Source: Piper betle
Lineage: Eukaryota; Streptophyta; Magnoliopsida; Piperales; Piperaceae
DNA length: 64,000 nucleotides
NCBI GenBank assembly: GCA_033002965.1
Contig: JAURVB010002634.1
Span: 1-64,000 of the forward strand
Reading direction: 5' to 3'
Under the pieces are notes generated by a model. It saw only the letters and a list, made by a program, of their open reading frames with translations. It was not told where the DNA came from and did no database searches. Below are positions 1,555-64,000 of the stretch, piece after piece (position 1 is the stretch's first letter; every line of letters begins with the position of its first letter). Position numbers and translations under genes: made by a program.

Positions 1555-4500
1555 TATAAAACCTACGACCCGAGTCAGGGTTTTATAGTGTGAATTAGTC
1601 GGTTCGACCATTATTTTTAATTGAGTCAATTTCAGAACACACATACCGAGCCGATGCCTATCATGTATTATGAACTATGAGAGTCAATTATCATGTTTAT
1701 GATGATAACGTCAGTATGACAATATTAGAATGAGTTATCAGAATATATGAGAGTATGCCTAGATTATTATTTATTTATTTTAGTATTAGGGCGTAGAATT
1801 ATTTTGGTCGAATTTTGCATTAGGACGTATTATGGGTAATTTGGGTGGGTTATTAGTTATAGAATATGTCATTGTGATGTTATAGTATGTATTATATTTT
1901 ATGAGATTTCCCCTATTTTTTAAGATTTTTTTTTGGAATTATTATGACTTAGTATTATTTGTTACTCGAGTCGGAGTCCTGTCAAGTTCTATTTACGAGA
2001 CAACCACCGACCTTCTCCCCGACCACTCGTATTCTCCCCCCACCCCAACACCGTTTATTCCAAACCCTTGACGCCACCACTTTACCTGTCACTGATTTCG
2101 CTACTAATGATTATCACTGCCGCCTTATGTTGCCAACCCTCCAGCGACCTTTCCTGACCTGAGTAGAGCCCAGTGCTGCCCATCCTGGCCGAATCTTCTG
2201 TCGAACTCATCCAGTCGAACCTAATCGAACTTCAGACGCCAATGGGTGCCAAATTCGAGTCTTGAGCCTCGCGACGAAACCCTAGTCGTCACCAATTACC
2301 GACGACGTGAGGGATAATTAACTCCGACTTAATTTATTAAAGGTGATAATTATTAGCACAACATGATAAGATTAATGAATTGACGAGTTTGTTATTTTAT
2401 GAAAATTTCTTGATTGAATGTATTAAAACAATTGCCAAGGAACTAATTAGATAAAATAAGTAATCATTGTAATCTAATGCAACGTAGCGTAGAAAAACTT
2501 ATGTGTGATTGATGTATGATTGATATAGGTATGCTATAGGATGTGCAAATACATCATGAGCGGGCGTTAGCTTCTAGATTTGATGTGTAGGTACGGAATA
2601 GGAGCTCACTGCCTAGGTGCAAGGACATGCTCTGTAAAACCCGTGACTCGAGTCAGAGTTTTACGGGAGTGAACCAGTCGGTTCAACCATCGGTTCGAGT
2701 CGAGTCAGCTTCATGGACCGCGAGCTAAGTTGAGGCCAGCTGTGAGTTATGAGCGATGAGGGTCATGTATGCTCAAGTGTACGATGATAATGTCTAAAAG
2801 ATGATGAAAAATGGGTTATCAAGTATATGGAGGTACACAGTATTGATTGTTATTTTTATTTGATCGTAGAATAGTTTTAGGCCGAATAACACATTAGGAC
2901 GCATTGGATTATATTCGGGTGGGTTATTAGTTATAGAGCATACCATTTGGATGTTGTTGTGTTTGTTTTATTTTATGGGATCTTTCCATATTTTTCTAGA
3001 TTTTTTTAGAATTTATTACGAACTAGTTATTATTTTGACTCGAGTAGGAATCGAGTCAATACTTAATTACGAAACTGCCACTAGAGTATATTTTCTCCTT
3101 CCCAACACTTACCCTCCCAAAACCCTCGCCGCTGTGTACTGCCACCACCGCCGCCGCCGACGCCGCACTGCTGCCGATCGACGCCGCTCCACCTTGCCGC
3201 GCCGTCGCTGTGCCGCCTCGACCGACCCCGGCCACCGATCGCCTGCCGGCGCGCCGCCGCGATGCCACGAAGCCGCCTCGGCAGTCGCCACTCCTGGCCA
3301 GATTCCGCTGCCGTTCGGTCACCGTCGCCATCACCGTGACCACCAGTCTCACCCTCTCGCCGTCGCCGATGTTTCCCCCACCATCCCGAGCGCCGTCGAG
3401 GCCGGCCACAGCCCCGATCGGAGAACGCCACCGCTGCCACCGCCGACAGCCATCGCCGCCCCAGCTGCTTTGTTTGACACCACCATCAGACCAAGTTCGT
3501 TGAGCTGGTGCCGATAGACCCCCTGATTGCCCCCTCCCGAATCACCGCCAGAATCCGTCGGAAAACTGCCGACACTCGCCGGAAAACCGTCGGAACCGCC
3601 GAAAAATTGAATTCGTGGGAAATTTGCCGGATCATCCGCCGAATGCACTCGGTCCAATCTGATCGGACTTCGGACGCCGTTAGGTGCCGAATTCGAGTTT
3701 CGAGCCACGAAACGGAAACCCTAGCCGTCGCCGATTTTCGACGACGCGAGGTATAATTTATTTTAACTTAATTATTTGAAAGTATTGATTATTAGAATTG
3801 TATGCTAGGATTGGTGAATTGTGTGTTATAATAATATATATAAATGTAGATTTGATTAAGGATAAAATATGAAATTTGTTTGATTGAGTAGTGTTAAAAA
3901 TGGAGGTTAAGAAACTAATTAGGGTAACTAGTTAATGATCATGATCGAATGCAAACTAGCCTAGGTAGACTTGCTAGAATTGATATAGGTTGATCTGTGT
4001 TGATTGATGCGTGATTGTGTTGATTGTGTGTGCATGCTATAGGATGTGTGATTCATCATGCGGGCGTTAGTTTTTAGCTCGATTGTGTAGGTACGGTGTA
4101 GGAGCTCGCTGCCTAGGCGCGTGGACCCGTTTGGAGCTTCTACCAGGTCCGTTTAGGACTCGTTCTCTGCTTTTACGCTATTCTATTGTGTATTTGATTT
4201 ATCATGTGCAGGACGAGTTAAGTGGCGTTTTATCGGATCCCACTTAACTCGGGCCATTTAGCCAACGGTTCTTTTTTCGGATTAATAACCCTCGAGGATG
4301 AGATCCCTCGAGTTTGTTTTTGAACTTCAGATCCAGCTCACGATGCCTTCGGGCCTATTGTATAAATCCCAACCCAGGCCTATATATATATATATATATA
4401 TATAGTTTTCGCGTTTTCGGTAAGAGATGGAATGAGGGTTACTGACGGCCACGCCTTCAGATAGGGCGTGTGCTCGAAAGAGCAGGCTCTGGAGCTGGGG

Positions 4501-7037
4501 AGAACCCACTTCGTTCCCGAAGGATCCGGACAACTCCACCTTTGAGTTCCTCAAACCCGGAGAAGTGTAGAGGTTTACGGGTACTGCAATGCAGCGCATG
4601 TCTAGACTTGTGGTTCAAAGGGTACTGAAGGCGACTGCCTGAGAGTGCTCGGCCTTTGTGCTCAAGGCTAGGAGTAAAATGGAAGGTGCAGAGGGCGGTA
4701 AGGAATGAAATTTGATGCGAGAAGCGATAGAGAAATGACCAAGGTATGAGAATGAGAAAGAAAGGGGGACGTTGTCGACCCGAGGGCGACGGCTCCCGTA
4801 TGTGCCCTGATGAGAGTTCTTGAGGAAGTATATGGTTTTGATTCAACTGGAGAGTTTGCTCTCCTGTGCCAGATTGATATTCGTTATTTTCTGGGGCGGT
4901 AACACTCATTACTGACGGTTTTTCTATATATATGTAGGTGAGGAATGCGAGCGATGAAAGCTGTCGGGACTGCGGAGGAGCAGCACAGAACCGCGCACAC
5001 ATGTACCTGCCGCGTGTAATGTATAATGATAGTTGTTTAATGCTTTGTGAATGGTTATTAGAATGTTTTTGTCTTGATGAATTGCTTGTTATGAAATGAA
5101 CGGATAGATGTGAATGAGCAGGGAGCCTTGAGTTCAGCCTCGGCTTAGATGAAAACTAATGAGATAGTGATTGAATGCCATGGTAGATTGTTATGTGTTA
5201 TCGTATTTTGATAAAATATTTGTATACCCTTATTGTAGGCAGGTTGGCCCCTATTGCACTTTTAGGGGAAACCTTGTCCGTTTTTCCGTAGTAGTATATA
5301 TTTTCTTTTAGTTTCTCACTTATTGTTTTGTCTTGTCTTTGCTTGCACGTCATGGCATGTGTGTAGGACTCCGTTAGAATCCAATTGTTCCCATTCATGC
5401 ATTTCATATTTGCATCTCCATCTTGAGATGCCGATAGTAGATCTGGGTCGGCTTAACCGAATCTAGTAGATTAGCGAATGGTTCGGTCGCCGGTGACATT
5501 TCCGGGTCGGTTCACGGGTGAGCTGAAACGGGGTGTTACATGCTCGGAGCTTCTACCAGGTTCGTTTATGACTCATTTTATATTTTATACTCTATTCTAT
5601 TGTGTGTTGTTTTATTACTTACAGGACGAGTTAAGTGGCGTTTTATCGGATCCCACTTAACCCGGGGATTTAATCAACCAGTTTTCTGGATTAGTAACCT
5701 TCAAGGATGAGATCCCTCGAATATTTTTTGAAAACAAGATCCACCACAAGTTGGCTTCGGGCCTATTGTATAAATCCCTTCCCAGGCCTATATATATAAT
5801 TTTTTTCGCATTTCAGGGAGACGAGAGATGGGAAGACTTACTAGCACGTACCATGAACGTGTGCATATGCTAGTCAAAGCGGGCTCTGGATTAGTGAGTG
5901 GGTTGTTCCATTCCCAAAGGATTCTGACAACTCTGCATTTGAGTTCCTCACACCCGAAGAACGTGGAGGTTTATGGGTACTATTTTGTACAACGCATGTC
6001 TAGACTTGCGGTTCAAAGGGTGTTAAAGGCGACTGCCTGAGAGTACTTAGTTTTCGTGTTCAAGGCCAGGATAATTATGGAGAAAAGGAGATGGCTTAGG
6101 ATATACTGGTATTCCCAAGAGATTAAGAAAATAAAATGAGAAAATGTCAAGAGAGGCATTAGTAGACTAGTCAGTTCAGGACGCTATCGAGTCTATAGCC
6201 CGGTGGCTCCTCAATAGATGCCCTTAGAAGTGTTCATGAGAAGTATATAACTGTTGTTTTTATTCAAAATTAGAGTTTGCTTTCATAACCAATTTGATAT
6301 TAGTTATATTTTTGGATCAGTAACACTTGTTACTGACGTATTTTTATAATATATGTAGGTGATGAGCATAGGTTGGATGTGCCAGCTTGGACGGAGGAGC
6401 AGTAATGTCTCTTATACAAACACATGTCAGATGGTAGAATGTTAATGTTTTGTTGATGTTGTCGTTATATTGAGAATGATACGATGTAATGCAAGGTATG
6501 ATAATATGATATGATATGATATTGGCTTCAATAGCAGAATTTATAATTGTTACATTTGAATACATACGTTTTATTTAATATGTTTAGATATTGAATATGT
6601 ACAACAAGTAAGACCCAAAATTGGATGCAAAAAGCGAATGTAATGTAGAGATGCGAGACCCAAGATTCAGAATAACTTATGCAACATATTATAATTTTTT
6701 GTGAATGTCAATGTGCGATATATTTATATATGTTTATACATATTGACTTAAACATGGTGACCCATAATTGCACTTTTAGGGGAGACTCTGTCTGTTTTAT
6801 TTTACAAATTTTATCAATTTTATCATAATTATTTTGGTATGTAAACCACTTGTTATGTCATCCATGTAGTAACTTGTTAGGATTTTTGTGTATTCATCCT
6901 TGCAAAGTGACCAACATCTTCCATCTTGAGATGCCAAGAGTAGATCCGCACGAATTAAGTTTGGGTTAGCCGACCCAATCAGGACTAGTGACATTCCAAT
7001 TTAGTTCCTGAGCATGAACTGGATTTGGGGTGTTATA
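1555..7037 (+). mobile_element. Old solo LTR of family L, split by a younger copy
   Basis: It begins TATAAAACCTACG and ends GGGGTGTTATA, the mutated forms of the family ends TGTAAAACC and GGTGTTACA. It is flanked by the 5-bp direct repeat CTTTT (1550-1554 and 7038-7042), the mark of LTR integration. Removing the nested copy at 2633-5540 and one 5-bp duplication leaves about 2570 bp. No gag, pol, primer site or second LTR is present, so it is a solo LTR. Mutated ends and many small differences mark it as older than its insert. Confidence 0.82.
2633..5540 (+). mobile_element. Solo LTR of family L nested in an older copy
   Basis: The element runs from TGTAAAACCCGTGACTCG to GAAACGGGGTGTTACA and is flanked by perfect TGCTC direct repeats (2628-2632 and 5541-5545). 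Length is 2908 bp. Order inside: the AT-rich start; a module with GACTCGAG and ATCGAGTCAA near 3036-3062; a GC-rich segment of Pro/Arg/Ala-coding composition (3120-3740); an AT-rich stretch bounded by a splice-like donor (3751) and acceptor (4211); a TATAAATCCC box near 4361; a (TA)12 run at 4381-4404; and a CCCCTA..TAGGGG hairpin (5248-5268). Open frames in the GC-rich part are low-complexity and not convincing genes. Confidence 0.88.
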
Positions 7038-15199: not shown

Positions 15200-15334
15200 C
15201 TAGAATGCACTGCATGCAGTGTATCCAAGCACATCTAGCGGCTGATTTCTCCCCACAACCCCCCCCCTATCACTCCCACCTGCCGGCCGCCCCTGCCACC
15301 CCCGCCCCAACCGTTGCCCCTTGCTAACCCCTCC

Positions 15335-18205
15335 TGTAAAACCCGTGATTCGAGTCAGGGTTTTACGTTACCGAACCAGTCGGTTCGATCGTTGGTTCGA
15401 GTCGAGTCGGTTTTATAAATCGCGTGCTGAGTCGAGACCAGCCGTGAGTTATGAGCGATGAGAGTCAGGTGTACCTGAATATATGATGATAACGTCGAGA
15501 AGATGGTGAGATACGAGTTATCTGAATATATGAAAGTATGCAGTATTTTTTTCTTTTTATATGTTTGATCGTAGAAATAATTTTAGGGCCGAATGACGAA
15601 TTAGGACGCGTTGGATTATATTCGGGTGGGTTATTAGTTATAGAGCATGTCATTTGGATATTGTTGTGTTTGTTTTATTTTATGTGATTTTTCCATATTT
15701 TTCTAGATTTTTTTAAAATTTATTACGAACTAGTTATTATTTTGACTCGAGTAGGAATCGAGTCAATACTTATTTACGAAAATGCCATCGCACACACTTC
15801 TTCTTCCTCCCGACCTTTTCTCCCCCACGCCCAAACCCTAACCGCCGCCGCCCCTGTTCGCGCGCCACCGCCGCCACGGCCGACGCCGCCTGGCCGCCGA
15901 TCGACGCCGCCCCGCCCAGTCGTGTCGTCGCCGTGCCGCCCCGACCAACCCCAGCCACCGTCTCGCCGCCACGACGCCGAAAATCGACCCACGAAACCAC
16001 CTCGGCCGCCGCCACTTCGGGCCGGATTCCGTCGCCGTCCGAGCCGCGCCGCTGCCGCTGTGACCCCGACGACCACCCCTCGACGTCGCCGACGTTTCCC
16101 CCATCGTCCCGACCACCGTCGAGGCCGGCCGGAGCCTCGATCGGAGAACGCCGCCACCGCCGCCCATTTTCGACGCCGCCGTCGACGGCCATCGCCGCCT
16201 CGGCTACCCTGTTTGACACCACCATTGGACCGAGCTCGTCGAGCTGGTGCCGATAGACCCCCTGATTGCCCCGTCCCAAATCATCGCCGGAAAACCGTCG
16301 GACATCTCGCCGGAAAACCGCCGACACTCGCCGGAAAACCGCCGGAACCGCCGGAAATTGGATTTGTGGGAAATTCGCCGGATCATCCGCCGAACGCACC
16401 CGGTCCAATCTGATCGGTCTTCGGACGCTGCTAGGTGCCGAATTCGAGTTTCGAGCCACGAAACGGAAACCCTAGCCGTCGCCGATTTTCGACGACGCGA
16501 GGTATAATTTATTTTAATTTAATTATTTGAAAGTTTTGATTATTAGAATTGCATGCTAGGATTGGTGAATTGTGTGTTATAATAATATAAATAAATGTAG
16601 ATTTGATTAAGGATAAAAATATGAAATTTGTTTGATTGTGTGGTGTTAAAAATAGAAGTTATGAAACTAATTAGGGTTATTAAGTAATAATCATGATCTA
16701 ATCAAACTAGCTTAAGTAGACTCGCTAGAATTGATATAGGTTGATGTGTGTTGATTGACGTGTGATTGTGTTGATTGTGTGTGTATGCTATAGGATATGT
16801 GATTCATCATGCGGGCGTTAGTTTTTAGCTTGATTGTGTAGGTACGGTGTAGGAGCTCGCCGCCTAGGCGCGTGGACCCGTTTGGAGCTTCTACCAGGTC
16901 CGTTTAGGACTCGTTCTCTGATTTACGCTACTCTCTTGTGTATTTGACTTATTATGTGCAGGACGAGTTAAGTGGCGTTTTATCGAATCCCACTTAACTC
17001 GGGCCATTTAGCCAATGATTTTCCGGATTAATAACCCTCGAGGATGAGATCCCTCGAGTTTGTTTTCGAACTTCAGATCCAGCTCACGTTGCCTTCGGGC
17101 CTATTGTATAAATCCCAACCCAGACCTATATATATATGTATAGTTTTCGTGTTTTTGTGAGAGACTGAATGAGGGAAATCCGACTACCGTGCTACGCGAG
17201 CGGGCACGTGTGTGTCGACAGTGGGCTCTGGAATGGTGCGCGGGCCGTTTCATTCCCGAGGGATCTTGACAACTCCACCTTTGAGTTCCTCAAACCCGGA
17301 GAAGTGTGGAGGTTCACGGGTACTGCATTGCAGCGCATGTCTAGACTTGTGGTTTCAAAGGGTACTGAAGGCGACTGCCTGAGAGTACTCGGCCTTCGTG
17401 CTCAAGGCCAGGAGTAATATAGAAGGTGCAGAGGGCGGAAAGGAATGAGATTTGACGCGAGAAGCAATAGAGAAATGGCCGAGGCATGAGAATGTGAAAG
17501 ATAGGGGGACGCTGTCGACCCGATGGCGACGGCTCCCGTATGTGCCCTGATGAGAGTTCTTGAGGAAGTATATGGTTTTGATTCAACAGGAGAGTTTGCT
17601 CTCCTGTGCCAGATTGATATTAGTTATTTTCCGGGCCGGTAACACTCGTTACTGACGGTTTTTCTATATATATGTAGGTGAGGAATGCGAGCGATGAAAG
17701 CTGTCGGGACTGCGGAGGAGCAGCACGGAACCGCGCACACATGTACCTGCCGCGGGTAACGTATAATGATGGTGTGTTATTGTTATGTAAACGATAATTT
17801 TGATGCGTTTGTTTGAGTGAATTACTTGTTATGAAACGAACTGATAAATATGAATGAGTAGGGAGCCTTGGAGTACAGACTCGGCTTAGGTAAAAATGAA
17901 TGAGATAATGGTTGAATGTCATGGTAGATTAGTATGTGTTACCGTATTTTTATAAAATAGTATATATTTTCTTTTGGTTTTTCATTTATTATTTTGTCTT
18001 GTCTTTGCTTGTACATCATAGCATGCATGTAGGACTACGTTAGAACCCATGCATCCCATCCATGCATTTCATGTTTGCATCTCCATCTTGAGACACCGAG
18101 GGCAGATCCGGGTCGGCTTAACCGAACCCAGTAGATTAGCGAACGGTTCGGTCGCCGGTGACATTTCCGGGTCGGTTCACGGGTGAGCCGAAACGGGGTG
18201 TTACA
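15335..18205 (+). mobile_element. Solo LTR of family L inside the foldback element
   Basis: It runs from TGTAAAACCCGTGATTCG to GAAACGGGGTGTTACA, flanked by perfect CCTCC repeats (15330-15334 and 18206-18210). Length is 2871 bp. It is closest to the 2633-5540 copy, sharing long stretches such as the segment 16440-16510 and the GAAACGGGG end. It lacks part of the region that holds the CCCCTA..TAGGGG hairpin in other copies (deletion near 17950). The intron-like block is 16502-16961 and the TATAAATCCC box lies near 17107. No internal retroviral sequence is present. Confidence 0.88.
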
Positions 18206-51591: not shown

Positions 51592-53337
51592 TCAAGCATC
51601 AGGTATATCCAAGTTGTTGAAAAGTTCTGGCAGATGGGCATTGGTTAGTTTCGTTCTCTTGCTAATTTCTCTCTTCTTCTTCTGCTTAGGCTTTGATGGA
51701 ACAATTCCATGCACCTGTGCCATTGCTTTCCTCTTAGCAGAATTGGTGGCTGGCTTCATCCCGTTCTTCTGCAGCTCTTTCTCGATATCAGCCATGTCTC
51801 GCGGCAACTCAATGTTTCGAAAGAGCAACTTGAGATCGTCGTCCACTTTTATATTAGCTTTGGGATCATTTGGATATGCTATGTCTTCTTGTGAATCTAA
51901 GTTTGAAAGCAACCATATATGCCTGGAAGCCTTCAAAGACTGTATATACACACATGCTATATAAGCAACAAATGGATACACAGCTGAGGGTACAAAATGT
52001 GTCAAACTTACAGTTTGATGTGCGTTTAATATTTTAAACTACTCCATCAATTTTCTCTTAATAATGAACCTGTCGAATTCGTTCCATGAAGAATTTACAG
52101 CCACCATTCGCATATAAAAAATTCTTAATATATATAATAAGGAATAAGTGATGTGAAATACTTATTAGTAGATAATGGCTTCTCACCTGTAAGTCCTCCA
52201 TTACTGATGGATATGCATCCTTGAGATCAATTACAGCTATACCTTCAGAATGCTTCTGAATCAAACTCAGCAATTGATCCTTGTTCTTCAAAAGCGTGCT
52301 TTGACTGTTAAAAGTCAATATGCCACACACATGAGCATAATTGGTATTCCTTTTTCAACCATTATAATTATCAGAAGGTTCAGTTACTAGACTGCTAATT
52401 CCCCATGATTCCAAAGCTTTCCAGAACAATTGCATCACCTTGTAAGAAAAGCGGTAACCATCGTAAGTTACTTTGAGATTTTTCGTCAAGCTCTCAAAAA
52501 CCTCCTTGTTAGCCTTGACGTCAACATAACACCTTGCATTAATTTCATCAGGAGTCAATGCTTCTCTTGTCTGCCATGCAAAATACACAAAACATAATTC
52601 TTTCAGCCCAAGCTGCACAAGATGTAAAACTCATACAATGTGGATTAAAATGGAAATTGAATAAATAACTAAACAAAACTCTTACAACGTGTATTAAAAT
52701 GGAAATTGAATAAATAACAAAACAGAGCTAGCTCAACTACTTGATCTGAATAAGAAATGCAATCAAACACAAATTAGACAAAACAGAATTGTTTCAGCCC
52801 AAGCTGTTCAAGATATAAAACTCATACAATTTGGATTAAAACGAAAATTGAATAAATAACTAAACAGAGCTAGCACAACTACTTGATCTGGATGTGAAAA
52901 GCAATCAAACACAAATTAGGACAAAACAGAATTCTTTCAGCCCAAGCTGCACACGATACAAACCCATATAACGTGGATTAAAATGAAAAAACAACTAAAC
53001 AGAGCTGGCTCAACTACTTGATCTGGATACGATATGCAATCAAACACAAATTAGCACAAAAGCTTACATCAAAAAGTAAGTCAAGAACGCGCTTAAGCTG
53101 AGCACCAACTGGGGATTTCCTGATGGAATTAATGTGCTGAAGTCTTTCGGTGTCGTTGGAGAATTTCACTGGGGCAGAAGGTGGTTTAGCAGGATGGGAG
53201 GAGGAGTGCCCCGCACTCTTTTGAGCATGGTGACTTGGCTTAGAGGGGGTTGCTCGCTTAGCAATGCTGGTTAAGGTGGACTGGCATTTTTCCTGTTGCT
53301 GTTTGAACCTGTTTAGGCTTTCCTGCAGGGATGACAT
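51592..53337 (-). CDS. TFIIE beta subunit, four exons, with a one-base frameshift
   Basis: Minus-strand exons: 53337-53068, 52570-52439, 52304-52187 and 51939-51592. The protein would be about 288 aa, the usual plant length. It starts MSSLQESLNRFKQQQEKCQS, then a Ser/Pro/His-rich linker. Tandem winged-helix regions follow (KRVLDLLFD | TREALTPDEINARCYVD; then EGIAVIDLKDAYPSVMEDLQ; then HIWLLSNLDSQEDIAYPNDP), and a Lys-rich tail (KPKQKKKREISKRTKLTNAH). TFIIE beta pairs with TFIIE alpha to recruit and regulate TFIIH at Pol II promoters. Oddity: exon 3 is 118 nt; all its conserved residues after the first four codons need one T fewer in the TTTT run near 52291-52294. The frame is broken unless this is an assembly error. 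All other splice sites and exons look intact. Confidence 0.85.
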
Positions 53338-53977
53338 CTTGGCAGGCTTACCCTCCAAAATTCTTTTCGTGATTGATTCTAAAGAACACCTATAAAAACA
53401 GAATCGACATAAACAACAAATCGAGATAAAACTGCGACTTCTCGATGTCGGCGGGTAGACGACACGAAGTTCACAAGCAATGCGATGTCGGCGATGATAT
53501 GTCTCCGGTTAGTCGGCGGCGACGATCGACCGCCGCCGCCGCCGCCGCCGCCGCCGACGATATAGGAAACGAACGGAGGAAGGGGAAAGGTGGTCAAAAA
53601 AGCTTGCCTGCCGTGAAAGTGATTTTGTTGGCCAGGAAGGAGGAATTCGCCGGAGAAGTCGGAGGATAGAATCGGAAAGGTAGCGCCTTTTTCGTTCGTT
53701 GTCTGGCGATGGGGAAGGAAGATGATCGGGTGAGAGGAAGGAGGATCGACCGCCGATTGGGGTTTGGCGGCGTAGAGAAGACGACGAGATCAATTTTAGA
53801 GGGAGAGATGTTAATTAATTAATTAATCCTAGCATTTATTTATTTTTTGGGGGTTAGAAATCTCATTTTCATTTCCTAAGCGAACATAGATTTTAAATTT
53901 ATATTAACTTAATTGTATTCACATCATTTTTATAAAAAAATAAAAAATAAAAAATAAAAAACAAATTTATATTATAC
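53338..53977. other. Leader/promoter region of TFIIE beta
   Basis: GC-rich to about 53790, with a CCG run at 53530-53556, then AT-rich up to the retrotransposon insertion at 53978. It should hold the TFIIE beta leader and core promoter on the minus strand; plus-strand open frames here are chance. Confidence 0.5.
53530..53556. repeat. (CCG)9 microsatellite
   Basis: Nine uninterrupted CCG units in the presumed TFIIE beta leader, a common place for such repeats in plants. Confidence 0.9.
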
Positions 53978-54171
53978 TGTTTCGCACGTATTTATCCGGC
54001 CACGTGTATTATTTCTGAAGAATTGGTCCATGCTATTATAAAACTGCCAGAGGAGATTACAAGAGAAAAGTCTCCGTCATTCAAAACTGAAGGAGAGAAT
54101 TTGGGTGGAAAATCCTGACAGTTTAGGATCCCACGCCCGTAATCTCGAAACAGAAGAAGCGTGAAAAACTC

Positions 54172-54178
54172 TATAAAA
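54172..54178 (+). promoter_or_regulatory. LTR TATA box (5' copy)
   Basis: TATAAAA in the context ACTCTATAAAAGACAAAACC, about 195 bp into the LTR. The same box occurs at 59654-59660 in the 3' LTR. Confidence 0.6.
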
Positions 54179-54737
54179 GACAAAACCCGACGTATTGGGA
54201 AAGGGGGCTCGTACGTTGAAAAGAAGAGAAATAGAAGAAAGAACAGGGGAAGAGCCCCTCGCCAGAGATTTATCTCCGGCGACCCCTGGCCAACCACACG
54301 GCCATCTTTTCTGTGAAGAATTTCACCCATTTGTAGTTGAAGCCTGTCATTGATCTGTTTTGAGCCACCAAGAAGAAGACGCCAGAACCTTGCTGCTTTG
54401 GAGTTTGCCGGATCAACAACCATCAGCCAAGCCGTCGACTCGAAGGGGTTCCTGAAGCGCTGCCGCTGTGCTGACTAGGAGTCCCACTATCAGGTTCCCG
54501 CCGCCGTTGTGAAGCTGATTGTTTTTCAGAGGGTTGCTGCCGTCCGTCCAAGGAAGAAGCCGCTACCCCTTGCATTGCTGATTACCATGGAACGTAGCCT
54601 GTTGCCATAAAAGATTACTGCTTTGCTACCCCGCTTGTTGCCGAAGAGGAAGCCGCCCATCACTGCACTACCGCCGTCCATCGGAGAAGACCACCGTCGC
54701 CAGAATTTTGCCACGAAGTAACCCATCTCAGCAGTCC

Positions 54738-55139
54738 GAAAACAGAGCGGTAACAGCAGCAAAAGCCAGACTTCACCACCGTTTTCCGTCCACGTCCGGT
54801 AGTTACCAGCCCCAAAGTGGAGTGAAATGTGAAGACGGAGGAGTGGTCTCGAAACCCAAAGTGAGATTTCCCGGTGTTCGCCATTGCAGTCGCCGGAGAA
54901 AAGCCACGAAGAGACCCATCCGACCAGAGGAAAAGATAGAAAACAGAGCGGTAACAGCAGCAAAAGCCAGATTTCGCAGCCGTTTTCCGACCACCTCCGG
55001 CCGTTCCCAGCGCCGCCGTGGAGTGAAATGTGAAGACAGAGGAGTGGTCTCGAAACCCAAAGTGAGCTTCGCCGGTGTTCGCCATTGCAGTCGCCGGAGA
55101 AAAGCCACGAAGAGACCCATCCGACCAAAGGAAAAAGCA
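54738..55139. repeat. 201-bp tandem repeat in the 5' LTR
   Basis: GAAAACAGAGCGG recurs at 54738, 54939 and 55140, exactly 201 bp apart. The two full units share long blocks such as GGAGTGAAATGTGAAGAC and GTGTTCGCCATTGCAGTCGC. A partial unit precedes the first (from about 54700). Confidence 0.9.
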
Positions 55140-56248
55140 GAAAACAGAGCGGAAAAACAGTCGCGGAGAGCTGATTTCGCGGCCGTTTCTCGATCGCCGC
55201 CGGTCGTTTCCAGACCTTCTGTTGATATCAAGTGAAGATGGAGAAGTGATCTACAAGAACATGCCGAGAGCCGCCGGAGTTCGTCGCTGAGGTCGCCGGA
55301 AAAAAATTGAGAAGTGACCGATCGGAGCAGCGTAGCACAAAAGTGCAGAAAAGTGTCCAACTTTCCGGCATCCGACCGACCGACCGGAGCCGCCGCTGAC
55401 TGTCGGACCACCGCAAAGACCTTCACCATTCTGAGATCTACAGTTCTGGGTGAACTCCACCACCATCAGACGCCGGAAAAGCCGCCGCCGGAGCCCCCAA
55501 AATCGCCGCCGCGTCACGCCGTAGCCGGGTCTGTCGTGCCCGTTTACCTCTGACCGAATCCGCTTTCCTGTCAGGTCCGTGATCAGATCCATCTGCCCCA
55601 CGAATTGCTAGACCCGCGAACAGACCCGGAACCGTGATCGTGTCCGAGACCCGCCCTGTGACCCGGATTTGAGTTGGCCCACCGTGCACCACAAGCAAAC
55701 TGGTGTACGCATAAAGGAAAGAAAGCCTGCGCACGCCATCCGGTCCGGTCCAGCATTTATTTGGTTTAAACCAACCCGGAACGGCCCGGTTCAGTGTATT
55801 ATTGTTCCAGAAATAATTTGAAGGCATTATAGATCTTGGATTGAGCCTAAACTTACTACCCCACCGTTTTTGGACGCTCTGGACACATTGGTGGGGTCAT
55901 TTTAAGGATTTAAAGAGCAGAAAGGGATAAATATTGGCATTGGAGTCAAAGATCTTAGGCGAATTGATTTACCGGTGGCAAAAATTCACTGTTTTGTGTA
56001 ACTTGTAAAAATCAATGGAGAAATAGTGGATTGTGAGTACTAATCTCACCGTGGACTGACTTAGGGATTCAAGTTGAACCCTAAGGAACCACGTAAAAAA
56101 TTCCTTGTGTGTCATTTTACTGTTTCTATTTTCATCGCATTATCTCTTTGCGCGGCAAGGGCGCCTCGGTCCCACCGAACCTTTAAACCCGAATCACACC
56201 CCAGAACCGATTCGAGGGGGCGGACGATCCCGTGCCCGAACATATTTT

Positions 56249-56268
56249 TGGCGACTCCACTGGGGACC
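56249..56268 (+). other. Primer binding site, tRNA-Arg-like
   Basis: TGGCGACTCCACTGGGGACC lies six bases after the 5' LTR. It starts with the TGG that pairs with a tRNA CCA end; as far as I recall plant tRNA-Arg sequences, 18-19 bases pair with a tRNA-Arg 3' end (..CCCCAGTGGAGTCGCCA). Confidence 0.75.
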
Positions 56269-56316: not shown

Positions 56317-58587
56317 ATGGCACCAGAGACAAGGAATGCGGCACGACAAAGAAGTAATAATGAGGATAATTCATCCACATCAACTGAAGGTAGGCAACAA
56401 TTTGAATTAAACATGGAAGAAAGTCAGCACATAGCGGGAAATGTGCGCGAAAGAATACAACAGCTCGAAGCAGTGTTGAATGAAGGAGATGAAGGAGGAA
56501 TTACTCCAAGGAGAAGCATGTTGAGGCGAGATGATCAAAGTCCAAGAAGCAATGAAGAGGTAAACCAACCATTAGAAGCCGAACAAGTGCTTTTGACAGC
56601 AACAAATCAGCTAAGTGGAGGACAAGTACTGAATCAAGCAATTGAAGAAAGATTCCGCCAAGGTGAAGAGCGGATGCAACGAATTGAGGATATGATACAA
56701 CAAGTGCTGGCCCAGATGCAACAGGCTAGTGCTGCAAACGGGAGCTCGTCAAGAAGAGAAGACGACCATCCCACGCAATGTCCAACAACGGACCAACCCC
56801 TGGAGGCTAGACAGATGTCTTCAACCTCTGAAAATCCAATTGTATCTACCTCACTCCCAGCTACCTGCACAGCATTGAGGGATCAAGCTAACATCCCTCA
56901 GGAAATCAACAATTTGTTTCTCATTTCAAGTACTGAGTCCACCCACCAAACATCTACAACTTCAACTTCGTTGCCCGAACAGATTTGGATGCAACACTAT
57001 CCCACTATACAACCGAATCGGACTGAATATAGTTTACTCCCTCACTCAACATGGTTTCCACAACCACCGTATTGCCAACCACCATACCCATACCAGTGGT
57101 ATAGCCCTGCACGCTCCCAACAACTATCTTCTATGGTGTTTCCACCATCAATCACCACCACGGTACCCATCCCAACAGTACCGTCAGCAATGCCAATAAG
57201 TCAAATGTCAGTTCCTATTACAGATTTACCAGCAAGTCTGCCACAAGCCCAATTGCCAACCATGTCAGTAGCACCAATGTCAGACCTTTGTTATGAAGAG
57301 TTGAAAGCAGAAATGGATGCACAAGCCGCACTTATCACTGCATTGATTGGAAAGAAAGATAAAGAATCAACTGAAGCGACAAAGCGTCTTCAACCATTAG
57401 CTGATGAAGTCTACACAGAGGTTTTTCCTGAGAAGTACAAGTGCCCAACCTTCACGAAGTTTGATGGAGATGGCAACCCTGAAGATCACATCACAATCTT
57501 CGAGATTGAGTGCGGAACAATCTCGACAAATGAAAAGTTAAAGTTACAACAATTCCCAGCTTCTCTCAATGGTAATGCACTTAGATGGTTCAACAATCGC
57601 CCACCCAGATCAATCAAATCATGGGAGGAACTCATTGAGCAATTCACAATGCATTTTCAGTCAATTGATATCCCAATAAAGATTGAGCATTTAAGGCAAT
57701 GCCAGAGAAAACCAGGTGAAGAATTTGCTACATATGTAAAAAGATTCAGAAGTCTTTCATCCCAAATGAAAGAGACTCCAGAGATCAAGGAGCTTGTAAA
57801 GATTTGCGCGATGAATGCTGGATCAGCAGCTTGGTTCCTGAGTGCTGCACAATGCAATACATTTGAAGAACTCTTTGAAAGGGTGCTAATATATGAGGAA
57901 CTCAACAGAATTTCAGCTTCAACAAAGAATAAAGGAGCATCAAGCAATGCAGTCACCGAGCTTGGTCACATGGATCATGAGTGGCAAGTGAAGACTAAGA
58001 ATGGAAGTGAAAATCCAAGATATACACCTCGAGAGTCTCGACAACAGCGTGAATGGAGGAATATTAAAGACTACACCTTCAACATTGGAGATACTGAAAG
58101 ATGGTTTGACGTGTTGAAGAGCAAAGGAAAGATCACACCATGGACTCCAAAAAATTTGCCAAAGCCAGAAGACGAAAAGAACGAAAATTTTTGTCGATTT
58201 CACCAGAGGTTAGGTCATTCTACAGTGAAATGTCGAGACATGATGGAGAAGATCCAAGAGTTACTTGACAAAGGTGATATAAAGTACAAAACTTCAACTG
58301 CCAATGTGATGACAGTGAGCCACTCATCTTCACTAATCAAGTCTCAAAAGAGAATGGAAAAGCTAGATGAAGGAAGGAAAAATGAGAAAATGGATGCCCT
58401 GATGGTTAAGGTCAAAGACATGGAAATGCCACATGTTTCCACTAAAGAAGTAAAGAAAGGGTTCTCTACATCTCCAATGATGCATGAGTTTGAAGTTCAA
58501 ACTGATCAAAAAGGAAAGGAGCTTGATAAAGAAGAAGATAGAAGATCAGCTTATTGTTCAAACAACTTCGACTCAAGAAGAAGTTAA
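56317..58587 (+). CDS. Gag-like polyprotein of the TR-GAG element (756 aa)
   Basis: It begins at an ATG 49 bp after the primer site. Residues about 1-130 are polar and coiled-coil-like (VRERIQQLEAVL; IEERFRQGEERMQRIEDMIQ). Residues about 215-320 are Pro/Ser/Tyr-rich. A Retrotrans_gag-type domain spans about 375-530 (KFDGDGNPEDHITIFE; LNGNALRWFNNRPP; RKPGEEFATYVKRFRSL). Near residue 626 a variant zinc knuckle CRFHQRLGHSTVKC has the pattern C-x2-H-x4-H-x4-C, like Tat-lineage gags. The protein should form the particle and bind element RNA. The frame is fully open. It ends after running about 100 bp into the overlapping second ORF. Confidence 0.9.
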   Translation: MAPETRNAARQRSNNEDNSSTSTEGRQQFELNMEESQHIAGNVRERIQQLEAVLNEGDEGGITPRRSMLRRDDQSPRSNEEVNQPLEAEQVLLTATNQLSGGQVLNQAIEERFRQGEERMQRIEDMIQQVLAQMQQASAANGSSSRREDDHPTQCPTTDQPLEARQMSSTSENPIVSTSLPATCTALRDQANIPQEINNLFLISSTESTHQTSTTSTSLPEQIWMQHYPTIQPNRTEYSLLPHSTWFPQPPYCQPPYPYQWYSPARSQQLSSMVFPPSITTTVPIPTVPSAMPISQMSVPITDLPASLPQAQLPTMSVAPMSDLCYEELKAEMDAQAALITALIGKKDKESTEATKRLQPLADEVYTEVFPEKYKCPTFTKFDGDGNPEDHITIFEIECGTISTNEKLKLQQFPASLNGNALRWFNNRPPRSIKSWEELIEQFTMHFQSIDIPIKIEHLRQCQRKPGEEFATYVKRFRSLSSQMKETPEIKELVKICAMNAGSAAWFLSAAQCNTFEELFERVLIYEELNRISASTKNKGASSNAVTELGHMDHEWQVKTKNGSENPRYTPRESRQQREWRNIKDYTFNIGDTERWFDVLKSKGKITPWTPKNLPKPEDEKNENFCRFHQRLGHSTVKCRDMMEKIQELLDKGDIKYKTSTANVMTVSHSSSLIKSQKRMEKLDEGRKNEKMDALMVKVKDMEMPHVSTKEVKKGFSTSPMMHEFEVQTDQKGKELDKEEDRRSAYCSNNFDSRRS

Positions 58588-59317
58588 ATTGAAGGATTCA
58601 ATGCAATATGGAAAAACAAAACTTCGCCTGATTTGCAGTTACGGTGGAAAGATAGCGATCCAAGGAAGGAAGAAACATTACATTGGAGGAAACACACGAC
58701 TTGTTTTAGTGGATCGTGATTGTTCTTATTCAAGTCTTGTTACTCGAATCAAGAGTACATTTTCTACTAGCAGCCCTTTCATGATCAAATGTCAGCTACC
58801 AGGTGAAAGCTTGAAGTACCCAATCACAATTGCTAGCAATGAAGACTTGACAAATATAATTGAAGAGCAAGAGGAATTCAACACAAGCACAAGATCAACT
58901 TCTCGCCTTCACTTCTTTGTATTACCGAAGAAATCAAGATCACCATCCAACTCAACATTGGACAAGAAGTTAAGGGCATCAATAGAAACTATTACTCCTA
59001 AAAGGTTTAAAAGAGAATCCAACAGCTCAACAAATAGTACGATGCATCACAAAAGAACAAGGTCTCCCCCATATCATCGAAGGAAAAGAAGACATCATGA
59101 GATCTTCTTGCCAAAGAAGCTAGATGCTAAGAAAGAGAAGTCACAGCTGAGAGTAGAAACGAAATTGTCATTCCCTCATTGCTACTCAAATCTAAAAAGT
59201 AAAAGGAAAGAAATATGGATTTGGAGACCACGGTTGTCGAGCAAAGAAGTCGCTCTCCTAAATCAAAATAATGGGCAGTTATCACAAAGTGACCCAGAAG
59301 GGGTCGTCTTAGCTTGA
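58484..59317 (+). CDS. Second ORF of the TR-GAG element: PB1 domain plus basic tail (277 aa)
   Basis: It overlaps the end of gag by about 100 bp in the +1 frame; the first ATG is at 58484, though no similarity is visible before about residue 40. Residues about 44-148 read as a plant PB1 domain: KLRLICSYGGKIAIQ with the conserved basic Lys after GG, YIGGNTRLVLVDRDCSYSSL, IKCQLPGESLKYPITIASNE with DLTNIIEEQEEF, then RLHFFVLP. Plant PB1 domains of NLP factors and PB1-kinases share exactly this order and mediate head-to-tail oligomerisation. The acidic OPCA part is reduced to SNEDLTNIIEE. The remainder is Lys/Arg/Ser-rich (KRTRSPPYHRRKRRHHE), which could bind nucleic acid or direct nuclear import. 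It ends SDPEGVVLA. No retrotransposon protein domain is seen in it. Confidence 0.8.
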   Translation: MSLKFKLIKKERSLIKKKIEDQLIVQTTSTQEEVKLKDSMQYGKTKLRLICSYGGKIAIQGRKKHYIGGNTRLVLVDRDCSYSSLVTRIKSTFSTSSPFMIKCQLPGESLKYPITIASNEDLTNIIEEQEEFNTSTRSTSRLHFFVLPKKSRSPSNSTLDKKLRASIETITPKRFKRESNSSTNSTMHHKRTRSPPYHRRKRRHHEIFLPKKLDAKKEKSQLRVETKLSFPHCYSNLKSKRKEIWIWRPRLSSKEVALLNQNNGQLSQSDPEGVVLA

Positions 59318-59400: not shown

Positions 59401-59411
59401 ACTCTATTTTT

Positions 59412-59459
59412 TTGCCGATTCTTCTTTCCAAGTTTGCGAAAAATCGGCAAGGGGGCTAA
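59412..59459 (+). other. Polypurine tract and 9-bp-stem hairpin before the 3' LTR
   Basis: TTGCCGATT (59412-59420) and AATCGGCAA (59442-59450) are perfect inverted repeats with a 21-base loop, directly followed by GGGGGCTAA and the LTR start at 59460. AAGGGGG is the likely polypurine tract that primes plus-strand synthesis. Confidence 0.7.
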
Positions 59460-61725
59460 TGTTTGCACGTATTTATCCGGCCACGTGTATTATTTCTGAA
59501 GAATTGGTCCATGCTATTATAAAACTGCCAGAGGAGATTACAAGAGAAAAAGTCTCCGTCATTCAAAACTGAAGGAGAGAATTTGGGTGGAAAATCCTGA
59601 CAGTTTAGGATCCCACGCCCGTAATCTCGAAACAGAAGAAGCGTGAAAAACTCTATAAAAGACAAAACCCGACGTATTGGGAAAGGGGGGCTCGTACGTT
59701 GAAAAGAAGAGAAATAGAAGAAAGAACAGGGGAAGAGCCCCTCGCCAGAGATTTATCTCCGGCGACCCCTGGCCAACCACACGGCCATCTTTTCTGTGAA
59801 GAATTTCACCCATTTGTAGTTGAAGCCTGTCATTGATCTGTTTTGAGCCACCAAGAAGAAGACGCCAGAACCTTGCTGCTTTGGAGTTTGCCGGATCAAC
59901 AACCATCAGCCAAGCCGTCGACTCGAAGGGGTTCCTGAAGCGCTGCCGCTGTGCTGACTAGGAGTCCCACTATCAGGTTCCCGCCGCCGTTGTGAAGCTG
60001 ATTGTTTTTCAGAGGGTTGCTGCCGTCCGTCCAAGGAAGAAGCCGCTACCCCTTGCATTGCTGATTACCATGGAACGTAGCCTGTTGCCATAAAAGATTA
60101 CTGCTTTGCTACCCCGCTTGTTGCCGAAGAGGAAGCCGCCCATCACTGCACTACCGCCGTCCATCGGAGAAGACCACCGTCGCCAGAATTTTGCCACGAA
60201 GTAACCCATCTCAGCAGTCCGAAAACAGAGCGGTAACAGCAGCAAAAGCCAGACTTCACCACCGTTTTCCGTCCACGTCCGGTAGTTACCAGCCCCAAAG
60301 TGGAGTGAAATGTGAAGACGGAGGAGTGGTCTCGAAACCCAAAGTGAGATTTCCCGGTGTTCGCCATTGCAGTCGCCGGAGAAAAGCCACGAAGAGACCC
60401 ATCCGACCAGAGGAAAAGATAGAAAACAGAGCGGTAACAGCAGCAAAAGCCAGATTTCGCAGCCGTTTTCCGACCACCTCCGGCCGTTCCCAGCGCCGCC
60501 GTGGAGTGAAATGTGAAGACAGAGGAGTGGTCTCGAAACCCAAAGTGAGCTTCGCCGGTGTTCGCCATTGCAGTCGCCGGAGAAAAGCCACGAAGAGACC
60601 CATCCGACCAAAGGAAAAAGCAGAAAACAGAGCGGAAAAACAGTCGCGGAGAGCTGATTTCGCGGCCGTTTCTCGATCGCCGCCGGTCGTTTCCAGACCT
60701 TCTGTTGATATCAAGTGAAGATGGAGAAGTGATCTACAAGAACATGCCGAGAGCCGCCGGAGTTCGTCGCTGAGGTCGCCGGAAAAAAATTGAGAAGTGA
60801 CCGATCGGAGCAGCGTAGCACAAAAGTGCAGAAAAGTGTCCAACTTTCCGGCATCCGACCGACCGACCGGAGCCGCCGCTGACTGTCGGACCACCGCAAA
60901 GACCTTCACCATTCTGAGATCTACAGTTCTGGGTGAACTCCACCACCATCAGACGCCGGAAAAGCCGCCGCCGGAGCCCCCAAAATCGCCGCCGCGTCAC
61001 GCCGTAGCCGGGTCTGTCGTGCCCGTTTACCTCTGACCGAATCCGCTTTCCTGTCAGGTCCGTGATCAGATCCATCTGCCCCACGAATTGCTAGACCCGC
61101 GAACAGACCCGGAACCGTGATCGTGTCCGAGACCCGCCCTGTGACCCGGATTTGAGTTGGCCCACCGTGCACCACAAGCAAACTGGTGTACGCATAAAGG
61201 AAAGAAAGCCTGCGCACGCCATCCGGTCCGGTCCAGCATTTATTTGGTTTAAACCAACCCGGAACGGCCCGGTTCAGTGTATTATTGTTCCAGAAATAAT
61301 TTGAAGGCATTATAGATCTTGGATTGAGCCTAAACTTACTACCCCACCGTTTTTGGACGCTCTGGACACATTGGTGGGGTCATTTTAAGGATTTAAAGAG
61401 CAGAAAGGGATAAATATTGGCATTGGAGTCAAAGATCTTAGGCGAATTGATTTACCGGTGGCAAAAATTCACTGTTTTGTGTAACTTGTAAAAATCAATG
61501 GAGAAATAGTGGATTGTGAGTACTAATCTCACCGTGGACTGACTTAGGGATTCAAGTTGAACCCTAAGGAACCACGTAAAAAATTCCTTGTGTGTCATTT
61601 TACTGTTTCTATTTTCATCGCATTATCTCTTTGCGCGGCAAGGGCGCCTCGGTCCCACCGAACCTTTAAACCCGAATCACACCCCAGAACCGATTCGAGG
61701 GGGCGGACGATCCCGTGCCCGAACA
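59460..61725 (+). repeat. 3' LTR of the TR-GAG element
   Basis: 2266 bp. The only differences I found from the 5' LTR are three one-base indels in the first about 240 bp: TGTTTGCACG versus TGTTTCGCACG; one extra A in GAGAAAAAGTC; one extra G in AAAGGGGGGCTC. The remainder reads the same, including all open frames. Confidence 0.95.
60221..60622. repeat. 201-bp tandem repeat in the 3' LTR
   Basis: Counterpart of 54738-55139; units start at 60221 and 60422, and a partial third at 60623. Confidence 0.9.
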
Positions 61726-61730
61726 TATAC

Positions 61731-62353: not shown

Positions 62354-64000
62354 GAGGAGGATTGCTATGCGCTGCATCAAAATGCATTGCATCCTTTCAT
62401 GGCCTGCCTTGCCTCCCGGCCCCCACCACCGGTCCCCAGTACCCCAGGACGACCTCTACTGGCCTCACGCTGCCTGCCCAGCCCCCATTGCAGCTTTGCC
62501 GCTCTCCCTGGTCGCCTCGCCCGCTCCCCTGCGGTGCACCCCCGCGACCTTCCCGGCAGTGCTTCATTAAACAAAGCAGGGAAGGGCGGCGAACAGGATA
62601 AGGGAAAGAGAAAGGGGGGCAAAGAAAAGGAAGAAGGGCGGCAATGGTGGCATTGGCCAAGGGTGATGCAGGTGACGGCAACGGTGAGGTTGCCGGCGGT
62701 CGGGGTGGAGCGGCAAAAACAGAGGAGGGGGAGCAGGGCGGGGTAATGACAATTTTGTAATAAAAACTTGACACACTCCTAGCTAGAGTCAATATTAATA
62801 AATAAAGTTTAAAAAATAAAATAAAATAATTTTGTAATAAAAACTTGACTCATTCACGACTTGAGTCAATATTATGAAATAAGTTTTAAAAAATTAAAAA
62901 TAATTTTGTAATAAAAACTTGACTCGTTCCTACTCGGTTCAATATTACAAAATAAATTTTAAAAAAATTTAAAAATAAAATACCAAAAAATATAAACTTG
63001 ACTCATTCCTTACGAGAGTCAATATTACAAAATAAAATTAAAAATAAAAAAAATAATTTCGAAATAAAAACTTGACTCTCTCCTGACTCAAGTCAATATT
63101 ACAAAATAAATTTTATTTTGTAATATTGACTACGAGTACGAAACGTGTCAAGTTTTTATTTTATGGTATTTTATTTTTAAATTTTTTAAAACTTATTTCA
63201 TAATATTGAATTGAGTCAGTAGCGAGTTAAATTTTTATTAAGAAATTATTTTTAATTTTTTTAAAATTTTATTTCGTAATACTCACTTGAATATGGAACA
63301 AGTCAAGTTTTATTATAAAATTATTTTATTTTATTTTTTAAAATTAATTTCAAAATATTGACTTAAGACGGGAAAGAGTCAAGTTTTTATTTGGAAATTA
63401 TTTTTTATTTTTATTTTGTAATATTGAATCGAGTCAGGAATGAGTCAAGTTTTTATTTTATGGTATTTTTTTAAAAAAAATTTAAAATTTTATTTTGTAA
63501 TATTGAATCGAGTCAGGAGCGAGTCAAGTTTTTATTATGAACTTATTTTTAAATTTTTTTAAATTTTATTTTATAATATTGACTCAAGTCGAGGAGTTTT
63601 ATTACAAAATTATTTTATTTTATTTTTTAAAATTTATTTCTTAATATTGACTTAAGTCAGGAGCGAGTCAAAGTTTTTATCACAAAATTGTCATCACCCT
63701 CGACATCCCCTTCACGGGATTGAGTCAAGTTTTTATTATGAAAATATTTTATTTTTAAAAAAATAATTTTATAATATTGACTCGAGTCGAACTGAGTCAA
63801 GTTTTTATTATGAAATTATTTTATTTTTTTAATATTTATTTCGTAATAAAAAATTGACTCAAGTCGGGATCGAGTCAAATTTTTATTACGAAACTACCCT
63901 CCCCAGTTTCTTTCCCCCCCCCTCCTGTTTTGCCACGCCACCCCACCGCCGGTGACCTTGCCGCCCGCGGGCGGCGGGAGGGGGGTGGCTGCAGCGTGGG
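62353..64000. mobile_element. Second foldback-type element, cut by window end
   Basis: The start (GCGCTGCATCAAAATGCATT, GCATCC) resembles the ends of the element at 15194-20125. A C-rich then G-rich segment (62400-62740) is followed by about 1.1 kb of alternating AATAAAAACTTGACTC and GAGTCAAGTTTTTATT units in both orientations. A new GC-rich segment (63895 on) reads GTTTTGCCACGCCACCCCAC, close to 19519-19545 in the first element. The right end is outside the window. Open frames in the GC-rich parts are low-complexity. Confidence 0.6.

Follow-up and report, generated by a model that had tools for sequence, protein, structure and literature searches.

What is a protein-interaction domain of host type doing in a long terminal repeat (LTR) retrotransposon that carries gag and no pol? 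The question is raised by an element in a 64,000-nucleotide stretch of Piper betle DNA (assembly GCA_033002965.1, contig JAURVB010002634.1, positions 1-64,000, forward strand), here called the window, for which an earlier note had described a PB1 oligomerisation domain in an open reading frame (ORF) downstream of gag. The observation was confirmed and its interpretation was partly supported: several families of LTR retrotransposons without pol encode a Gag of which PB1 is, as a rule, the C-terminal domain.

The ORF at 58484-59317 matches the PB1 family of Pfam (PF00564) with an E-value of 7.8e-9 and a score of 35.8 bits, above the curated cut-off of 23.6, which bears out the domain assignment of the earlier note. 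Other copies of the element score 37.5 (L044), 36.1 (L034), 36.5 (L039) and 34.9 bits (L055) against the same cut-off. A model of the domain alone, of moderate confidence, predicts a ubiquitin-like fold with the order strand-strand-helix-strand-strand-helix-strand, and its top matches among solved structures are PB1 domains, in line with the fold that the note had anticipated; the model of the full ORF was poor. Sequence searches of the PDB with the element sequence gave no PB1 matches, and no relatives were found in viral and prokaryote sequence collections. A chance match to PB1 was ruled out by the Pfam scores in the window and in the other copies, the fold model and the structure matches.

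The genome was searched in the window's own assembly, which comprises 527 Mb in 11,211 contigs. The PB1 ORF has at least 189 matches there (140 of 647 candidates scored), ruling out an ORF confined to the window copy. A single frame holds gag and PB1 in 15 of the 20 best copies. A free-standing PB1 ORF is thus limited to a minority of copies, and PB1 is normally not the separate captured ORF that had been proposed. A fusion frame of at least 910 amino acids is present in 26 of 40 fetched stretches (L021-L060, some of which are the same copies as in the best-20 set), with 15 copies in family A (989-1006 amino acids) and 11 in family B (910-970 amino acids). Both proteins that were scanned, L021 (1001 amino acids) and L044 (910 amino acids), contain the capsid domain PF03732 and PF00564 within one ORF. 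The fusion to gag in many copies rules out a host gene simply sitting between LTRs.

The remaining five of the best 20 copies have PB1 offset from gag, by one frame in the window copy (L001), L002, L003 and L013 and by two in L017. Since L001, L002 and L003 share both offset and spacing, the split-frame form has itself been copied. Production of a separate PB1 protein downstream of gag, by frameshifting or splicing, would suit these offset copies and their siblings, but is very improbable given the single frame in 15 of the 20 best copies and the long fusions in 26 of the 40 stretches. The young window copy, with siblings despite its offset frames, fits a supply of protein in trans, with translational frameshifting as the alternative.

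The features of the window element are as follows, with coordinates in the window.

53973-53977, no strand: 5' target-site duplication (TSD) TATAC, from the sequence
53978-56242, plus strand: 5' LTR with TG...CA ends and an internal tandem duplication of about 201 nt, from sequence comparison
56249-56268, plus strand: putative primer-binding site (PBS) TGGCGACTCCACTGGGGACC, from the sequence
56317-58587, plus strand: gag ORF of 756 amino acids, with the PF03732 capsid and then a CX2HX4HX4C knuckle (about 58192-58233), from Pfam
58484-59317, plus strand: ORF of 277 amino acids with the PB1 domain, frame-offset relative to gag in this copy, from the ORF list
58613-58927, plus strand: PB1 domain, Pfam core 58670-58912, from Pfam, the fold model and the structure matches
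58928-59314, plus strand: basic tail C-terminal to PB1, from the sequence
59405-59459, plus strand: short hairpin and then the polypurine tract (PPT) GGCAAGGGGGCTAA, from the sequence and kept in 9 of 9 other copies viewed
59460-61725, plus strand: 3' LTR, 99.8% identical to the 5' LTR, from alignment
61726-61730, no strand: 3' TSD TATAC, from the sequence

The element is complete, with two LTRs, a 5-bp TSD, internal PBS-like and PPT-like sequences, gag and no pol, and thus agrees with the earlier description of a gag-only element with near-identical LTRs. The upstream ORF was identified as gag by Pfam (PF03732, E 2.2e-13). The interval between gag and the 3' LTR contains the PB1 ORF and A-rich DNA and nothing else, showing that pol is absent. 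The two LTRs, of about 2265 nt each, differ by one mismatch and three gaps across 2273 aligned columns; at a substitution rate of 1.3e-8 per site per year, the single mismatch corresponds to an age on the order of ten thousand years. The match to Gag suggests that the Gag-PB1 elements are of Gypsy type. The knuckle and the PBS presumably resemble those of Tat elements, the element itself having no reverse transcriptase (RT). The putative PBS is found also in A2 copies, in B copies and in the pol-bearing relative described below. A tandem pair of units of about 200 nt lies in the LTR at 54738-55213, and related sequence occurs in the LTR region of this relative (L085).

The order PBS, gag-PB1, short hairpin, PPT and start of the 3' LTR is identical in the nine copies viewed. 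We regard it as almost certain that the elements are built as LTR, PBS, gag-PB1, PPT and LTR, with Gag fused to PB1 and with the position of Pol taken by the linker, PB1 and basic tail. Two LTR types occur in family A and another, distinct one in family B. A query with the family A LTR gave matches that flank a Gag-PB1 match, about 5.4-5.7 kb apart, in seven contigs including that of the window (C2045, C9944, C9699, C1845, C11024, C3383 and the decayed C7306), and a 582-nt repeat of 99% identity flanks a family B copy on both sides. Seven older copies (L053-L059), with an identity of 57-64% across most of the PB1 end, are decayed, with the Gag end still preceding PB1. The tail after PB1 is basic, with a net charge of +21 in L021 and +16 in L044, and a KEIWIWRP-like motif can be recognised near its C-terminus in both families and in the older decayed copies (e.g. 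L053-L060). Several family B copies have short frames of recurring length (365, 427 and 489 amino acids) around an open PB1 part, which suggests sub-families with a broken gag and an intact PB1. The hairpin stem TTGCCGATT/AATCGGCAA lies immediately 5' of the PPT in the window (59405-59459) and in L021, L031, L033, L041, L044, L046, L048, L051 and L052. It is retained across copies whose LTRs differ, and its folding energy is slightly better than that of shuffled sequences (z -1.62 and -1.33).

Selection was estimated as the mean pairwise ratio of non-synonymous to synonymous change (dN/dS, NG86) among the 26 fusion frames, leaving aside the other 14 of the 40 fetched stretches, which are broken, shorter or older. 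N-terminal figures are inflated by L030, L046 and L048, which are without the usual start motif at the frame start (L030 starts within the N-terminal part; L046 and L048 have extra upstream codons). The PB1 domain is under constraint, with a dN/dS of 0.169 for the 105 pairs within A and of 0.285 for the 165 A-B pairs, as the earlier note had expected for a functional module present in many related copies. Two single A-B pairs gave 0.254 (bootstrap 0.14-0.47) and 0.315 (bootstrap 0.16-0.58). The Gag capsid is under strong constraint (0.049 in A, 0.111 in B, 0.062 between A and B). The corresponding values were 0.55 (A) and 0.345 (A-B) for the tail, and 0.43 and 0.47 for the linker.

These values bear on the question of whether PB1 is a passenger, a captured filler without function that stays open by chance or by recent amplification. 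The loss of the canonical interface residues (see below), the loose constraint on linker and tail (0.35-0.55 in A and A-B) and the small number of PB1 differences inside family B, too few to reveal selection, are all compatible with a passenger. The idea is nevertheless improbable, given the bootstrap upper bounds of 0.47 and 0.58 for the two A-B pairs and the persistence of long frames in two families whose PB1 domains differ at about 40% of their synonymous sites. In a neutral simulation of the 321-codon end of family B, 0.1 substitutions per site left 78 of 4000 sequences without a stop, and 0.28 left none of the 4000.

The origin of the domain was examined by comparison with host genes. 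The PF00564 search of the genome raised 256 candidates, of which the 150 scored matches all exceed the cut-off. The top 25 are host-gene-like, 3 are unassigned and 122 score like elements, although not each of these was checked. From the top 25, 19 were fetched (L072 and L073 being identical in protein), and the comparison covered QLP-class and NLP-like exons, the NLP label being based on a motif. The exons closest to the element PB1 domains are L068, L074 and L075, with 31-40% identity. In the tree, the element domains group with nine QLP-class host exons with a joint support of 96/94, subject to a long-branch warning from the tool, and the split between the elements and the host QLP class is weak (75/27). 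QLP precedes the OPCA motif in 25 of 26 intact copies, and L034 has QLL. In the literature, QLP is given as a mark of kinase and kinase-derived plant PB1 domains, in which the beta-1 Lys is not conserved (PMC7051960). Judged from these residues and the tree, the element PB1 appears to group with the host QLP, kinase-derived, class. Among the QLP-class and NLP-like exons compared, the kinase-derived group was the nearest, and an NLP-like origin was ruled out by the host-exon comparison and the tree.

The element PB1 resembles the host QLP class in the QLP before the OPCA, the absence of the beta-1 Lys and the joint tree group, and differs from it in the OPCA core. The acidic core of canonical type 1 PB1 domains is D-x-D/E-x-D/E (PMC7051960). 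This core is kept in none of the 26 intact copies, with ESLK in 15 of 15 A copies and ESFN in 11 of 11 B copies, whereas the nine host QLP-class exons all have an acidic [E/Q][D/E]LD (EDLD, EELD or QDLD). Lys occupies the last of the four core positions in 7 of 7 older decayed copies (L053-L059), and the change is therefore old and shared. The beta-1 Lys of canonical type 2 domains is also absent, with Ile or Met in its place (KLRLICSY, RLRLMCSF), as opposed to the Lys of the host NLP-like exons. Since the residues of the head-to-tail contact are changed, the term oligomerisation domain used in the earlier note is unproven and may be wrong. From these residues, a standard head-to-tail PB1 chain seems unlikely in the element, and a one-sided or other PB1 contact may be possible.

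A search of the assembly with the capsid (120 of 1517 candidates scored) revealed at least ten places with about 76% capsid identity in frames of 1247-1608 amino acids. One of these, L081, has the PF03732 capsid, RT (RVT_1, 3.7e-30) and RNase H in one frame reaching the contig end. No PB1 was found by Pfam in this frame, which was read to the contig end, inside pol, and no integrase was seen up to that point. The DNA match between L081 and family B stops at nt 1806 of the B coding sequence, just past the knuckle, and L081 shows no significant match to the linker, PB1 or tail of either family. None of the ten places is among the PB1-ORF or PF00564 matches listed. The homologous Gag of L081, followed by RT and RNase H with no PB1, indicates that PB1 occupies the position of Pol at the Gag C-terminus, and rules out a PB1 common to all Gag relatives.

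Families A and B are not equally diverged along their length. The synonymous difference (pS) between them is 0.70 (0.60-0.82) in the capsid, 0.50 (0.38-0.63) from capsid to knuckle and 0.41 (0.29-0.56) in PB1; the intermediate value suggests a gradual shift or an unsharp breakpoint. In protein, the B capsid is closer to that of the PB1-less relative than to the A capsid (non-synonymous difference, pN, 0.05 vs 0.10), and its pS from this relative is 0.60 (0.49-0.72), with overlapping intervals. The simplest reading of these sequence differences is that recombination may have carried the PB1 end from one Gag backbone to another; another possible cause is unequal mutation rates. In 11 aligned family B copies (within L041-L052), differences reach 19% in codons 551-650 but no more than 1.3% in codons 651-999, a pattern that suggests a recent sharing of the PB1 end among different Gag backbones.

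These data also address whether the Gag of the lineage had an ancestral PB1 that the pol-bearing branch lost, as opposed to a later gain in the pol-less branches. The presence of PB1 in A, B and older decayed copies would be expected with an ancestral PB1, and at synonymous sites strong divergence separates the capsids of A, B and the pol-bearing relative. Still, an ancestral PB1 is unlikely, because PB1 is less diverged than the capsid between A and B and the B capsid is nearer to the PB1-less relative, a pattern into which a later recombinational spread of the PB1 end fits. From the PB1-less state of the pol-bearing relative and the host-class affinity of the domain, we infer that the element captured a host PB1. 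The earlier note had proposed such a capture, with the domain kept open, and the capture remains putative. The host-type domain, its many copies and a dN/dS below 1 agree with the test that the note had set for a functional module.

The explanation towards which we lean slightly is that PB1 and the basic tail of Gag-PB1 serve helper-dependent elements as a module for assembly, RNA packaging or adaptor function. The elements would produce their own Gag, with its strongly constrained capsid. Gag-PB1 would form particles, or form them jointly with Gag-Pol that pol-bearing relatives provide in trans, and PB1 with the tail would be an added C-terminal module that helps RNAs without pol to enter the particle. 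Given the altered canonical interface, this contact would probably be one-sided or non-canonical and not a self-polymerising chain. The specific role given here to PB1 and the tail is tentative and quite possibly wrong.

Several observations weigh against this explanation. Neither PB1-PB1 surface is canonical in the element. The PB1 dN/dS within B was 0.51, from 0.18 synonymous and 0.33 non-synonymous differences per pair, a value that is uninformative since PB1 is too uniform in this family (fewer than one difference per pair). Stop-free counts among the matches listed, 60 of 66 in the aligned stretch for PB1 copies of at least 85% identity (21 in frames of at least 980 amino acids) and 49 of 49 for family B copies (18 in frames of at least 900 amino acids), are biased upward, as only the best-scoring candidates were scored. 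The pol content rests on one of the ten long Gag frames, whose contig ends inside pol. No family A LTR was seen on the contigs of these ten frames (40 of 666 LTR candidates scored). The LTR on the L081 contig is 67-81% identical to the family A LTR in pieces; the last 82 nt reach 97.6%, and a near-identical helper LTR, which this short stretch alone would suggest, was ruled out by the longer one. No pol-bearing element with a family A LTR was seen among the 40 LTR candidates scored, and the L081 LTR is alike only in parts; the helper of the Gag-PB1 elements and their co-assembly with it are therefore putative.

A serious but unlikely candidate is a host-directed adaptor or decoy, in which particles would engage PB1 proteins of the host (kinases, kinase-derived PB1 proteins or NBR1) through their own PB1 and so recruit, mask or misdirect them, e.g. 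to escape autophagy or to steer the particle. Against it, the beta-1 Lys of basic-face PB1 domains is missing, family B has Asn instead of Lys in the altered core, and the dN/dS values indicate constraint and not the rapid change expected in an arms race. A combined version, which we consider decidedly unlikely, is that a host signalling domain became part of the capsid protein with its binding face remodelled, and that Gag-PB1 particles filled with helper Pol dock on host PB1 proteins of the kinase type or NBR1 without self-polymerising, the PB1 end having spread between Gags by recombination as a transferable host-interaction module.

Elsewhere in the window, exon-like ORFs lie on the minus strand at 51592-53358, just upstream of the element, one of which weakly resembles TFIIE beta (PF02186, E 0.0037, below the cut-off). 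At 62744-63830, a cluster of AT-rich repeats around AATAAAAACTTGACTC, each about 80-155 nt long and found in either orientation, possibly represents small terminal-inverted-repeat elements. A direct repeat of about 2.6 kb with 86% identity occupies 2632-5218 and 15334-17959.

The Gag-PB1 elements provide a clear case of a host-type protein-interaction domain inside Gag, kept under constraint in elements without Pol. A defined domain with a defined interface change offers a means to test how pol-less elements compete for helper particles. Automated annotation may overcount PB1 genes in such genomes, as seen from the 25 host-like and 122 element-like matches among the 150 scored.

Extra ORFs were reportedly surveyed in 2011 by Steinbauerova and colleagues. 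As the earlier note had supposed, no PB1 domain in a retrotransposon was found in the open-licence PMC literature, some papers that mention PB1 lying outside this check. PB1 does not occur in the sunflower extra-ORF paper PMC11728184, as far as this source was covered, or in the main text of PMC6317226, and the terms co-occur by chance in PMC11059378 and PMC6421318. The nearest published cases are the PB1 of MUSTANG transposase genes (PMC8616336) and the domain capture in orchid Gypsy elements (PMC9289625). In MUG7 and MUG8 (MUSTANG B), PB1 is thought to be acquired and, as here, is joined to a protein derived from a transposable element, but this is a domesticated transposase of a Mutator-type DNA transposon and not a retrotransposon Gag (PMC8616336). 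The orchid elements carry an ALKBH5-like m6A demethylase and likewise represent a host domain captured and kept by a Gypsy lineage, but theirs is an enzyme in an additional ORF of large elements (PMC9289625). The orchid screen (PMC9289625), whose main text does not contain PB1, began from RT-bearing regions, and screens of this kind would miss pol-less Gag-PB1 elements. The additional ORFs (aORF/eORF) of Ogre, Retand, Grande and Athila (PMC7264820, PMC11963269) share with Gag-PB1 the retention of non-canonical coding sequence in many Gypsy-type copies, but they are separate, often antisense and mostly of no known function, whereas PB1 is a named host domain fused to Gag in sense and in frame. 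Finally, among gag-only non-autonomous LTR retrotransposons such as TR-GAG (Chaparro et al. 2015, as cited in PMC10552921), the likeness lies in the LTRs, gag, the absence of pol and movement presumably by the enzymes of other elements. The window copy has the two LTRs, TSD, PBS, PPT and gag without pol of the TR-GAG kind; unlike TR-GAG, which has no coding capacity beyond Gag, its lineage carries a Gag extended by a host-type PB1 and a basic tail in the place of Pol.

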